The notes beneath the pieces are model-generated. The model was given only the letters and a program-made list of their open reading frames with translations. It had not been told where the DNA came from and did no database searches. Source: a virus. Taken from it: a DNA stretch of 40,282 bases. The DNA lies in the IMG/VR virus record IMGVR_UViG_3300044986_000412, positions 1 through 40,282 of that record. One strand, written 5' to 3'. The translations under genes were made by a program, and so were the position numbers. Each line of letters opens with the position of its first letter. Position 1 is the stretch's first letter. Positions 3,084-31,334 of the stretch are shown piece by piece.

Positions 3084-3428
3084 ATGCACTTCAACAACCT
3101 AAAAGAATTCCTCGAAAGCGGACTGAGCCAAAAACAATTTGCCATAAGTCAAGGCATAAGCGTAACCGGGATGGCTGATAGATTAACCCGCGAAATGAAG
3201 CGGTTATTATCAACAAACGTAATCGAAGCCAAACGGATCGTCGGCGAAGTATCCATTCACATTGATGACGTAAAACGTAATCGGGTTAATTGGCTCAAAG
3301 CTATTGATGCCTATAACCAAACAATGTGCGCACCAGTTGACATCAAAACCGATAACCGCAAGATAAGTGAGTTGACGGTGAGTGAGTTCGTGGGGGTGAT
3401 GATGAAGGTGATGGGGAATGACCGCTAA
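3084..3428 (+). CDS. Putative helix-turn-helix protein, 114 aa
   Basis: Residues about 8-38 (LSQKQFAISQGISVTG followed by a helix rich in Arg and Lys) look like a helix-turn-helix: a short helix, a glycine turn, then a recognition helix. I do not recognise a named family. It is the best regulator candidate in the window and could act on the shared operators near 370-468, 31935 and 32562, but that is inference. Its stop codon TAA (3426-3428) lies inside the R'' box of the first attC-like site, so its C-terminus may have been altered when the cassette array arrived. Confidence 0.55.
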   Translation: MHFNNLKEFLESGLSQKQFAISQGISVTGMADRLTREMKRLLSTNVIEAKRIVGEVSIHIDDVKRNRVNWLKAIDAYNQTMCAPVDIKTDNRKISELTVSEFVGVMMKVMGNDR

Positions 3429-3516
3429 CGTTTTCGGGCTTGGTGAAGTGCCGCTACTCGAAACTTAAATTTTAGCACTAACTGTCCTGCGGCATTTTGC
3501 CAAACCCGTGTTATGG
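3424..3516 (+). repeat. attC-like site 1
   Basis: R'' is GCTAAC (3424-3429) and R' is GTTATGG (3510-3516). Twenty-base arms at 3435-3454 and 3489-3508 are complementary at 16 of 20 positions. All four differences are transitions; three give G-T wobble pairs in the folded top strand. Spacers between R and arm are 5 bases left and 1 right. The loop is about 34 bases. The stop codon of the upstream gene lies in R''. Confidence 0.6.
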
Positions 3517-3563
3517 GATAGTTTTAAAAACCTTTTAGGGTGGGCATTTAAACAAATTTAAAA

Positions 3564-3911
3564 ATGGAAAATTTAGAAGTAAAAGCAAAAAATTACAAAC
3601 TTGGCTCAATTGGATGGGCAGAAGGATTTATGAGACCTAAAGGCGATGTTGGTTTCTTTATGGTAGCAGATTGGGATAAAGCAAAATCCATAATTGAAAA
3701 CCTAATTTCAGAAGGTAAAAACATTGACGAAGTTGAAATGGGATTAGATGGTTATTGGCGTGAAAACTCAATGACTGTTTGGCAAGATGGAGAATTTACA
3801 GAATACGATTTTTATGGTAGTTCAAAATGGGCAGAGCCAATCATTATCGTAAATTATAAAGATGCACCTTTTGAAACTTATTCGGTTTGGAAACGAGAAG
3901 CTAAATCGTAG
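3564..3911 (+). CDS. Cassette 2 hypothetical protein, 115 aa
   Basis: The only gene of the cassette spanning 3511-3949. Not recognised. It is a soluble protein rich in aromatic residues (several Trp and Tyr), with a middle part (residues about 60-90) that alternates as in a beta-rich fold. ATG 3564 has an A-rich leader after the cassette's left end. The cassette's ends form an almost perfect inverted repeat of about 26 bases (3510-3536 and 3924-3949), which includes the R boxes. Unlike the next two ORFs it starts inside its own cassette, because the reading phase entering from attC site 1 meets a TAG within four codons. Confidence 0.7.
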   Translation: MENLEVKAKNYKLGSIGWAEGFMRPKGDVGFFMVADWDKAKSIIENLISEGKNIDEVEMGLDGYWRENSMTVWQDGEFTEYDFYGSSKWAEPIIIVNYKDAPFETYSVWKREAKS

Positions 3912-3942
3912 CGGTGCGGTGGGAAAAGGTTTTTAAAATTTC

Positions 3943-4073
3943 CCATAACGTATGGTGCTATGAGAAGTAGCGGATTTTGAAAACGAAAATTTGAATTATG
4001 CAGAAAACTTTATTTGAAAACGAAATGTTGAATACACAACTGAACCCGCTATTTCTTATAGCACGTGTTAGTG
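3943..4073 (+). repeat. attC-like site 2
   Basis: R'' is CATAAC (3944-3949) and R' is GTTAGTG (4067-4073). The arm GTGCTATGAGAAGTAGCGG (3955-3973) pairs with 4046-4064 at 17 of 19 positions; positions 8 and 13 are G-T wobbles. Spacers are 5 bases left and 2 right. The roughly 70-base loop carries the ATG of the next gene (3998). The arms and wobble positions match site 3 in geometry though not in sequence. Confidence 0.65.
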
Positions 4074-4702
4074 GCAGTTTTTCTTCCATTACGTATAAAC
4101 AAGCGATTGATTTTTTATTACCTCGCCATTATTCAGGAAGAAAACCAAGTATTACTTTTTCTTTTGGGTACTTTGAAAATAACGAATTGAAAGCAGTATG
4201 TACATTTGGCAAACCTGCAAGTAATAGTTTATGTATTGGCGTTTGTGGCAAAGAATATAGCGAAAAGGTATTTGAATTAAACCGACTTTGTGTTGATGGA
4301 GAAATAGAAATACAACTATCTAAATTTGTGGCTTGGTGCTTAAATGAATTGAAAGCAAAAGATTTAATTTTGGTTTCTTATGCTGATACACAAATGAACC
4401 ATAACGGATATATTTACCAAGCTACAAATTGGATTTATACTGGAATGACAAAAGCACGAACTGATAAATATGTGGAAGGTGGCAAACATTCAAGGCACTA
4501 CGATAATGAAAATCAAAACGGTTTAAGAAAATACCGAAGTGCAAAACACCGATACATTTATTTTTCAACAAGTAAAACCAAAAGAAAAGAGTATATGAAA
4601 AAACTAAATTATCAAATTGAACTTTACCCAAAAGGCGAGAATAAAAAATACGAACTTGGCACATTTATCGAACCGATTGTTATTGGCACGGTCGTTTCTT
4701 AA
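3998..4702 (+). CDS. Mom-like DNA modification protein in a cassette
   Basis: Resembles the phage Mu Mom family, acyltransferase-fold proteins that modify adenine in DNA and protect it from restriction. Family-like features are HYSGRKPS (about 44-51), FGKPAS (about 69-74), ELNRL (about 91-95), and the C-terminal run SYADTQMNHNGYIYQATNW (about 128-146). The stretch TKARTDKY follows, then a Lys/Arg-rich tail. At 234 aa it fits the family. The ATG at 3998 (or 4025) lies in the loop of attC-like site 2; from there the frame crosses R' as codons for VSG. After R' no ATG, GTG or TTG is in frame before the conserved part, so the start must come from the upstream attC. A second, diverged Mom-like gene is at 30546-31334. 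Confidence 0.72.
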   Translation: MQKTLFENEMLNTQLNPLFLIARVSGSFSSITYKQAIDFLLPRHYSGRKPSITFSFGYFENNELKAVCTFGKPASNSLCIGVCGKEYSEKVFELNRLCVDGEIEIQLSKFVAWCLNELKAKDLILVSYADTQMNHNGYIYQATNWIYTGMTKARTDKYVEGGKHSRHYDNENQNGLRKYRSAKHRYIYFSTSKTKRKEYMKKLNYQIELYPKGENKKYELGTFIEPIVIGTVVS

Positions 4703-4708
4703 AATTGC

Positions 4709-4838
4709 CACTAACGTTTCGTGTATGGGTAGTGTGGGAATACGAAACACTACCCTGTCAAATTATAAATAACTTAAATACGAGAACAAATGATTGAATT
4801 ACCACAAAAACCCACATTACCTATACACGGTGTTAGCG
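4709..4838 (+). repeat. attC-like site 3
   Basis: R'' is ACTAACG (4710-4716) and R' is GTTAGCG (4832-4838). The arm CGTGTATGGGTAGTGTGGG (4720-4738) pairs with 4811-4829 at 17 of 19, with G-T wobbles again at positions 8 and 13. Spacers are 4 bases left and 2 right. A second hairpin nests inside: GGGTAGTGT (4728-4736) with ACACTACCC (4747-4755). The loop carries the ATG of the next gene (4790). Confidence 0.65.
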
Positions 4839-5104
4839 GTAGTATTTCTATTTATGACTACAAACCAAGACAAGGCTGTAAGGAAATAATTATAAATAGC
4901 AAATGGGCTAATGATGCAGAATATTTTATTGTTAGAAACAATGTTGATTGCCTTGTTATTCAAAAGTGTTATATGGAAATACCCAAAAATGCACTAAAGA
5001 TTAGCAAACAGAATCATTTAAGGATAGAAATAGAAGTTCCTAACGGCACTTTTGCTATAGATGAAGAAAGCACAGAAGATGAATTGGTGGTATATTACCG
5101 CTAA
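4790..5104 (+). CDS. Cassette 4 hypothetical protein, 104 aa
   Basis: Not recognised. A soluble, mostly beta-predicted looking protein with three cysteines, ending in an acidic stretch (DEESTEDE) and VVYYR. The start ATG 4790 lies in the loop of attC-like site 3, preceded by an A-rich leader. The frame runs through the right arm and R' box and reads VSGS there, exactly as the Mom-like ORF does at its own R'. The stop TAA (5102-5104) sits in the R'' box GCTAAC. The part past R' is the cassette proper; the first 14 or so residues are encoded by the upstream attC-like site. Confidence 0.6.
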   Translation: MIELPQKPTLPIHGVSGSISIYDYKPRQGCKEIIINSKWANDAEYFIVRNNVDCLVIQKCYMEIPKNALKISKQNHLRIEIEVPNGTFAIDEESTEDELVVYYR

Positions 5105-5138
5105 CTCCCAAATACACGAAGTACTCTGCGTCTATTCA
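5103..5138 (+). repeat. Direct repeat A at array end
   Basis: These 36 bases match 5240-5276 at roughly 30 positions with one gap; both contain CCCAAATACACG and end TGCGTCTATTCA. Copy A follows the R'' box of cassette 4 directly. The pair brackets about 100 bases and may mark the boundary between acquired cassettes and native phage sequence. Confidence 0.7.
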
Positions 5139-5239: not shown

Positions 5240-5276
5240 AACCCCCAAATACACGCAATACCCATGCGTCTATTCA
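5240..5276 (+). repeat. Direct repeat B at array end
   Basis: This is the second copy of the repeat at 5103-5138. It reads AACCCCCAAATACACG then CAATACCCATGCGTC. Copy A has the attC-type R'' sequence CTAAC before it; copy B has TGCAAC. The two could be two left halves of attC sites whose right halves were lost, or a target duplicated during capture. Neither is provable here. Confidence 0.65.
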
Positions 5277-30075: not shown

Positions 30076-30549
30076 TTATCCGATTGTGATTTTTGCGCCG
30101 TTTGGTAGTTCTAAGACCTGATGCTCTTTGTCTTTGCCTTCGGAGTCGGTGTTGGCTATTTTGGCGGGGGCATAGTCCCCATCTATTTTTGCCAAATAGT
30201 CCAAAGCCTTCAATTGGTCGCTTGGTGACGGCATTATGATTTGCCCCTCTACCCGCTTGGCTTTGCCCAATGCAATACTTTCAGCTATCTTCATTCGTGC
30301 GTATTTGTCCAATACAAGCGATTTGGCGGCCTCTGTCTCCGTCCTGATGCTTTCCTCGGCCTTTTGTTTATTAACGGATTCTCGGTGCGCTGAATACTCT
30401 TCGTTGGCAGATTTCCAATACCTTACAAACGTCTGTTCGGTTAACTCAAATTTACTAACGAAAGCTAACATAACTTCCTTATACTGAACATTTCCTTTAT
30501 TCAGCTCATCAATGATAAAATCTATGTATTGCCTTTTATTTGGTTTCAT
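30076..30549 (-). CDS. terS: Terminase small subunit
   Basis: A 157-aa protein directly before TerL. The N-terminal half has helix-turn-helix features (QYKEVMLAFVSKFELTEQ, then WKSANEEY), followed by a long charged helix, as in oligomeric TerS. The C-terminus is a short beta-like tail (VLELPNGAKITIG). It would recognise the packaging site on the phage genome. It overlaps the Mom-like gene upstream by four bases, so modification and packaging genes are co-translated. Assignment is by context and shape. Confidence 0.75.
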   Translation of the reverse strand: MKPNKRQYIDFIIDELNKGNVQYKEVMLAFVSKFELTEQTFVRYWKSANEEYSAHRESVNKQKAEESIRTETEAAKSLVLDKYARMKIAESIALGKAKRVEGQIIMPSPSDQLKALDYLAKIDGDYAPAKIANTDSEGKDKEHQVLELPNGAKITIG

Positions 30550-31334
30550 TTTAGTTTGAGCGAGGAGGTCGGTGTAACCGCCATCTCAATACTGGAAGTA
30601 TTGCGACTTTTATTTAGCCCACCCTCGCATATTTCTTTTCTGCTTTGTAAAGATACTTTTTTCCCTTTATACATTCCTGCTCCCATTTCATCTATTTTGC
30701 TAAATGGTAATATTGGAACGGTTATTTTGCAGGATTTGTCGATTAGGTAAATGTATCGGAGTTGGAAACCATCTACTTTTTTTGCCCCTGTTCTTTCTTT
30801 AAAATTGCTAAACTTTTCGCCTAATTTATAACCAACTTTCTTTTTTAAAAGATGGCTGCTTGCCCTTAACCCTATGTCGGCAAATCTAAACCCATCAGGC
30901 ATTTCATAAATAGTGCTGTTTTTTGTAACCCCCAATAATTTAAAACCACTTGCTCTATATATCGTACCGTCACCACATTGCGTTCCGTCTGCAAAAGAAA
31001 TAACCCACTTTATATGTGATGCGTTTTTCTTTAGCAATTTCATGCAAATCGAAATACATCTACTTTCGCTATACTTTGGCAAATATTCATCAAATGCCAT
31101 TCTGTTTAATTCTAAAAATTCATTCCATTTAGTGCCTTCTACATAATTAATGCAGTTTGATTTTTGCATTGATGGCCCAAATTGCAAAACTCCATGCAAC
31201 TTTTCATCTAAAAAACAACCAAAACAAACGGAAGGGTTAACTGCACTTTTACCCGAATAATGATGTTTCTTTACAAACTCATTTGCAATCTTTGACGGTA
31301 TTACCTTAACAATTATTTCCTTTGCTCTGCCCAT
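30546..31334 (-). CDS. Mom-like DNA modification protein (packaging region)
   Basis: A 262-aa protein of the Mom-like acyltransferase type. HHYSGK is at 24-29, followed by FGCFLDEKLHGVLQFGPS, ELNRMAF (about 74-80), then VISFADGTQCGDGTIYRASG (about 111-130). The C-terminal third is an extra basic domain ending SLKLK. Mu Mom converts adenine to a modified form that blocks host restriction. A similar role on this phage's DNA before packaging fits its place between a ParB-like gene and TerS. It is clearly diverged from the cassette-borne Mom-like protein at 3998-4702. The modified base, if any, is unknown. Confidence 0.78.
   Translation of the reverse strand: MGRAKEIIVKVIPSKIANEFVKKHHYSGKSAVNPSVCFGCFLDEKLHGVLQFGPSMQKSNCINYVEGTKWNEFLELNRMAFDEYLPKYSESRCISICMKLLKKNASHIKWVISFADGTQCGDGTIYRASGFKLLGVTKNSTIYEMPDGFRFADIGLRASSHLLKKKVGYKLGEKFSNFKERTGAKKVDGFQLRYIYLIDKSCKITVPILPFSKIDEMGAGMYKGKKVSLQSRKEICEGGLNKSRNTSSIEMAVTPTSSLKLK

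Follow-up and report, generated by a model that had tools for sequence, protein, structure and literature searches.

The window, that is, the whole stretch of 40,282 nucleotides analysed here, is the contig of a phage, with genes for a terminase, a tape measure protein, a primase-helicase and an SSB. Three small genes, each accompanied by a hairpin, stand in it between resident phage sequences in the following arrangement.

3084..3428, + strand: left junction and resident phage gene, whose stop codon lies within GCTAAC; this 'up' segment is 90-94% identical in the relatives L483-L487 and ends there at the same base
3426..3513, + strand: hairpin site 1, attC-like, with a 20-bp arm, part of cassette 1 (covariance model R1, 67.7 bits, E 3.4e-13)
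3510..3949, + strand: cassette body 1, with 27-nt inverted ends GTTATGGGA...TCCCATAAC
3564..3911, + strand: cassette 1 ORF, 115 aa, without known family
3946..4070, + strand: hairpin site 2, with the start codon of the Mom-like ORF in its loop (R1 92.7 bits, E 6.4e-19)
3998..4702, + strand: ORF for a Mom-like DNA modification protein, 234 aa (PF25680 in Pfam, E 3e-29; phrog_1384, E 2e-56)
4067..4715, + strand: cassette body 2, which has exactly the same ends (649/649) in other viral contigs
4712..4835, + strand: hairpin site 3, in whose loop the cassette 3 ORF has its start codon (R1 82.5 bits, E 1.4e-16)
4790..5104, + strand: cassette 3 ORF, 104 aa, without known family, its TAA stop within the terminal TAAC
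4832..5105, + strand: cassette body 3, with 14-nt inverted ends GTTAGCGGTAGTAT...ATATTACCGCTAAC
5106..5138, + strand: right junction, a fixed phage motif YCCCAAATACACG...GCGTCTATTCA right after TAAC, in an attI-like position; in L483-L488, too, this motif comes after the final TAAC
5243..5276, + strand: the junction motif again, present only once in relatives, a possible trace of an earlier event

The first ~26 codons of the Mom-like ORF lie within hairpin 2 and its R box. The earlier note had proposed a search for the same cassettes in Bacteroidota chromosomes and metagenomes; cassette 2 does recur, in other viral contigs, and a search of genome contigs with its Mom protein found no relative, so that this cassette may be phage-specific. 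A second Mom-like gene lies at 30546-31334 on the - strand (phrog_1384, E 4e-50), in the structural half of the window and outside the cassettes. Cassettes 1 and 3 have no match in PADLOC, Pfam or PHROGs. The contig lacks an integrase, as had been claimed, no tyrosine recombinase being found in it (no PF00589 match). Of the array limits first given (3424 to 5105), the right end at 5105 stands and the start is moved to 3426.

All three hairpins share one layout, in which TAAC is followed by a spacer of 3-5 nt, an arm of ~20 bp, a loop, the other arm, a spacer of 1-2 nt and GTTA. At the places where the earlier note had seen three hairpins of the same architecture, they were detected (E 3e-13 to 6e-19) by the covariance model R1, which was trained on 26 hairpins from other loci with the window sites excluded and which scored at most 23.9 bits on the - strand, against the values listed above for the + strand. 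Dinucleotide shuffles of the window contain 0.03 such hairpins per 40 kb, against the 3 observed. Across 19 arm pairs, 17 change on both sides, and the covariation score (0.715, versus 0.155 after shuffling) also lies far above that of slid controls. Because the 26 aligned rows were picked partly for good pairing, the independent searches are the strongest evidence for the family.

Wobbles at fixed arm positions, first noticed in the window sites, extend to the family at large: in 324 viral hairpins, to which the counts of arm positions and R boxes are confined, G-T occupies position 14 in 65% of cases and T-G in none; at position 5 the figures are 29% for C-A and 0% for A-C. Because these imperfect pairs are strand-specific (G-T and never T-G, C-A and never A-C), one strand is, on this pattern, built for folding, as in attC. 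The suggested fold of the sites as single-stranded DNA does not favour that strand at site 1, where the + fold is not the better one (-13.8 versus -15.2 kcal/mol). Canonical attC sites from Pseudomonadota arrays, whose number did not suffice for a covariance model and which served for the comparison of polarity and bulges only, read AACG...TTGTT on their bottom strands, which is the polarity of the window + strand. The + strand thus corresponds to the bottom strand of canonical attC, and the R'' and R' labels first given to the sites have to be exchanged.

The R boxes RYYYAAC and GTTRRRY are found in 8% and 8% of the 324 viral hairpins, and the cores YAAC/GTTR and AACG in ~98-100%, YAAC/GTTR being preset by the selection. 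In place of the bulged bases of attC, the arms, as returned by a hairpin finder that permits no bulges, are unbroken over 18-20 bp and have G-T and C-A pairs at fixed positions. Hairpin lengths are quantised at about 124, 117-118, 85-88, 70-78, 184-188 and 196-203 nt. The VCRs of the Vibrio cholerae superintegron are likewise hairpin repeats of about 123-126 nt common to unrelated cassettes, but VCR arrays have hairpins of another sequence family, another group of hosts and another type of integrase, and also differ from the window family as regards presence in phages. Many loops of the 124-nt hairpins (alignment A1) contain a repeated GCACAAAACTTCA-type motif with a period of ~20 nt. A search of Rfam 15 gave no family match for the hairpins, and no description of the Bacteroidota hairpin family was found in journal literature open without subscription, preprints set aside. 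Of 198 Bacteroidota genomes, sampled evenly, 109 have R1 matches; of 150 Pseudomonadota genomes, 32 of them with IntI, none has one. Present in hundreds of viral contigs and in about half of the sampled Bacteroidota genomes, such hairpins are not special to the window phage.

The left end of each body matches its own right end, over 27, 15 and 14 nt in cassettes 1, 2 and 3, which agrees with the original observation that cassette ends are complementary to themselves and not to those of the neighbours. A match of at least 11 of 14 positions between own ends is found in 58% of viral and 77% of genome bodies, compared with 3% and 5% when the ends across a hairpin are paired. The locus is composed of tandem single-gene cassettes with one hairpin each and a common orientation, as in integrons. 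Inverted ends of 10-27 nt on each body would also be expected if the units were small MITE-like transposons that a DDE or HUH transposase mobilises by their terminal inverted repeats, and the ends of IS200/IS605 elements are hairpins resembling those described here. There is hardly any likelihood that such elements account for the array, because the inverted ends vary by cassette whereas a transposase requires a common end sequence, because the insertions seen adjoin another unit's TAAC or lie at a single fixed site, and because the arrays are linked to a tyrosine recombinase.

Other viral contigs hold cassette 2 with its 649-bp ends exact and among different neighbours. The upstream hairpin accompanies it in L006, L007, L010 and L042; the downstream one does so in none of the contigs. 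Four further contigs (L008, L009, L012 and L014) have the same cassette 2 with a loop 86% similar to that of 3946-4070 and with both arms completely replaced as a pair, and the cassettes of L044-L053 have in common with cassette 2 just its final 150 bp, right end included, which makes them chimeric. In L483-L487, flanks 90-94% identical to those of the window enclose none of the three window cassettes and hold other cassettes at the same junctions, which are GCTAAC followed by G and TAAC followed by [TC]CCCAAATACACG; L488 has the right junction in common. The window phage has no with/without pair, and its relatives differ in cassette content. Such pairs are provided by cultured Flavobacterium phages of the genus Lillamyvirus, namely hemulen, sniff and snork, in which at least 10 such hairpins are found. 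An exact 439-bp unit of hairpin and body distinguishes sniff9-1 from sniff9-2 and hemulen6-1 by its presence or absence, the flanks being 100% identical, and a 342-bp unit does so for snork6-1 and snork6-2, the flanks being 99.3% identical. These natural indels and exchanged contents point to exact excision and insertion. Because the sniff pair loses the hairpin 5' of the lost body, the cassette unit is a hairpin with the body downstream of it; the earlier assignment of each hairpin to the upstream body is at odds with this pair and with the contexts of cassette 2.

Judged by these comparisons, the region is a mobile cassette array and not a native operon. A native phage operon without mobility, punctuated by terminator or regulatory RNA hairpins, would agree with hairpins that lie between same-strand genes, where they would be in the mRNA, and with start codons in the loops. 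Its probability is nevertheless negligible in view of the exact gain and loss of cassettes between near-identical phages, the wholly different content held by relatives at fixed junctions, the movement of cassette 2 with exact ends, the lack of an Rfam family and the chromosomal ORFs that run opposite to the same hairpins. A gene block conserved in order among related phages had been named beforehand as the observation that would favour such an operon, and the opposite is seen in L483-L487, which carry other cassettes. A regulatory side role of the hairpins is possible; the operon as a full account is refuted.

Phage mosaicism, in which common hairpins and loops would let cassettes be exchanged through homologous recombination, could draw its homology from one hairpin type with many cargos, since among 449 viral cassettes there are 701 pairs that have one hairpin in common and bodies that are unrelated. 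This explanation is very improbable, because the indels in sniff and snork remove exactly one unit with a shared end sequence of ~5-12 nt, because the arrays hold one polarity and because a linked recombinase exists. The occurrence of the same hairpin with many cargos also bears on the origin of cassettes and of their hairpins. At L392 4621, L177 650, L178 1126 and L183 2304, hairpins ~97% identical to site 1 or to each other stand with unrelated genes, several of them with the same TIR (GTTATGGGATAGTT); the L183 hairpin is 97% identical to window site 1 and has other cargo.

The mobile array is connected with a tyrosine recombinase elsewhere in the family. In four array-bearing chromosomes the recombinase is on the same contig and at the same end of the array, and 66 of the 198 Bacteroidota genomes have relatives of one array recombinase (E<=1e-50). 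Because TIGR02249 alone is undiscriminating, control genomes matching at loose thresholds, flanks were compared with Xer and canonical IntI as controls. R1 hairpins were found in the flanks of 19 of the 20 closest array recombinases, 0 of 20 Xer-type recombinases and 0 of 31 canonical IntI (20 from Bacteroidota, 11 from Pseudomonadota), the last with one sub-threshold match (E 0.068). In bacteria, 45 of 47 hairpins are on the 3' side of the recombinase and in a single orientation. Viral contigs found by the recombinase alone have 151 upstream hairpins on the + strand and 0 on the - strand, with 13 downstream, and hairpins are present at 54 of the 66 viral recombinase loci with enough upstream sequence. 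An array adjacent to its recombinase at fixed polarity is thus seen with the array recombinase and not with IntI. Terminase, RecT or phage RNA ligases are encoded on some of the recombinase-bearing viral contigs, which are therefore genuine phage contexts; many viruses encode the recombinase beside their own array, whereas the window phage does not. The viral contig L421 has the chromosomal layout, with the array 3' of the recombinase, and is possibly a prophage or a bacterial fragment.

In a tree built without misframed, very-long-branch IntI rows, chromosomal and viral array recombinases form two clades on one branch (97/84), to which canonical IntI is nearest, with Xer outside (100/100) and other recombinases sparsely sampled. 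The array recombinase scores 179.5 bits against the TIGR02249 cut-off of 265, which is reached in 0 of the 15 array genomes first checked, and ~43 residues of the IntI-specific segment are absent from array recombinases when compared with IntI4. This additional segment is needed for IntI activity according to a passage of PMC9668308 that cites Messier and Roy (2001). The chromosomal enzymes L305, L307, L346, L347 and L349 have a ~70-residue N-terminal domain (RIAVYFEKN...GARWSQ...WHLPDT), which could be DNA- or site-sensing, and the viral ones are without it. Simple recombinases related to IntI are also described as an 'integron-like' subgroup by Smyshlyaev et al. (2021; PMC8138268), whose passages on that subgroup report no link to these hairpin arrays.

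The array had initially been read as a CALIN open to an integron integrase. A CALIN is defined by two or more attC sites with no integrase close by, and the window has three attC-like hairpins and no PF00589 gene. An integrase-less mobile array is what is found; canonical IntI as its partner is contradicted by the flanks (0/31 versus 19/20). A classical CALIN of ordinary attC sites, mobilised by canonical IntI, would fit the TAAC/GTTA cores, the cassette logic and hairpins of about Vibrio VCR length, and canonical IntI above the curated cut-off is present in 57 of the 198 Bacteroidota genomes. That number exceeds what the relevant passages of the cited literature suggest; IntegronFinder 2.0 lists a single complete integron in Bacteroidetes proper, in Salinibacter ruber (PMC9024848), and the published taxon-specific attC models are without Bacteroidota (PMC8352920). 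Canonical IntI as owner of the arrays, suspected from the same number, was excluded by the flank test. In the part of Qi et al. (2023; PMC9892861) that deals with it, the Bacteroidota phage P12002L, which infects Polaribacter, is reported to carry a CALIN, one site of which was recombined by IntI1; this phage is comparable in its DNA methyltransferase cassettes, its Mom-like gene, hairpins of like form and the lack of an integrase. The same paper, in its sections on virulent-phage CALINs, treats them as canonical attC and counts 17 CALINs in 10,705 phages; those sections leave the hairpin family, its recombinase, the phage-encoded versions and the inverted orientation undescribed.

Such a CALIN is unlikely to be the explanation, because R1 hairpins are present in 0 of 20 Bacteroidota and 0 of 11 Pseudomonadota canonical-IntI flanks and in 0 of 150 Pseudomonadota genomes, and are not enriched together with canonical IntI (26 of 57 genomes with it, 83 of 141 without). 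Canonical attC has single-base bulges, whereas the family arms are unbroken, and the P12002L hairpins, although similar in form, gave no R1 match at E<0.01.

Phage and chromosomal arrays are mirror images of each other. The dominant ORF is on the hairpin folding strand in 167 of 171 viral bodies, with 67 starting inside the hairpin, and opposite to it in 123 of 139 bacterial bodies (Fisher p about 2e-62). Because the canonical attC bottom strand shares the polarity of the + strand, chromosomal cassettes would on that reading have the classical orientation, with the site after the gene, and phage cassettes would be inverted. Between the two forms the recombinase gene changes direction as well, and it is therefore co-directional with the cassettes in both.

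With canonical integrons and CALINs, the family shares arrays of single-gene cassettes with one hairpin per cassette, TAAC/GTTA cores, the folding-strand polarity AACG...TGTT, complementary ends belonging to the cassette itself, a tyrosine recombinase flanked by the array on one side and array recombinases nearest to IntI. It differs from them in that the recombinase is without the IntI segment and oriented otherwise relative to the array, the R-box consensus is absent, G-T wobbles replace bulges in the arms, cassette ends are complementary over ~10-27 nt, and phage cassettes are inverted, with the start codon in the hairpin. By this comparison the system works like an integron cassette array, and is not canonical when judged by the IntI segment and the R boxes.

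Most likely, therefore, the window holds a three-cassette mobile array that belongs to an integron-like system common to Bacteroidota and their phages, moved by a recombinase that is a sister of IntI. The folding strand would be the hairpin + strand, like the bottom strand of canonical attC; the IntI-sister recombinase would bind this strand in folded, single-stranded form, cut at TAA^CG and join it to another site. Whole cassettes would be excised and inserted as circles, whose two ends would pair to form a stem consisting of the arm and a further 10-27 bp. Many phages and bacteria encode the recombinase at a fixed end of their array. For hemulen6-1 and sniff9-1 the enzyme presumably acts in trans, because no recombinase gene (PF00589) was found in either, and in the window phage it would have to come from the host or from a co-infecting phage. 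The phage array would be read through as an operon in which the hairpin often supplies the start codon, so that a cassette inserted anywhere could be translated. The Mom and DNA methyltransferase cargo would, to judge from the family names, protect against host restriction.

In wider terms, Bacteroidota probably possess a second branch of integrons, with an IntI-sister recombinase and hairpins of its own, in chromosomal and phage mirror forms, and with a phage cassette pool, including DNA-modification genes, that is separate from the bacterial pool. The hairpin and recombinase system is widespread yet, it appears, undescribed. Integrons are usually regarded as bacterial systems that IntI defines and that phages seldom carry, and the Bacteroidota family departs from that picture; if this reading is true, phages gain a gene-swapping device for anti-restriction genes. 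It raises the questions of which features of IntI and attC are essential and of how the phage and host cassette pools stay apart, and the cultured sniff and snork phages, with their natural cassette gain and loss, make the system testable.

A fixed right junction motif, in a position like that of attI, is present in the relatives of the window. At the right end of the window array there is no hairpin, TAAC being followed by the fixed phage sequence. The motif there is doubled, the two copies starting 137 bp apart and the intervening stretch ending in GCAAC, whereas relatives have one copy; the doubling may have been left behind by a recombination event at the attI-like end.
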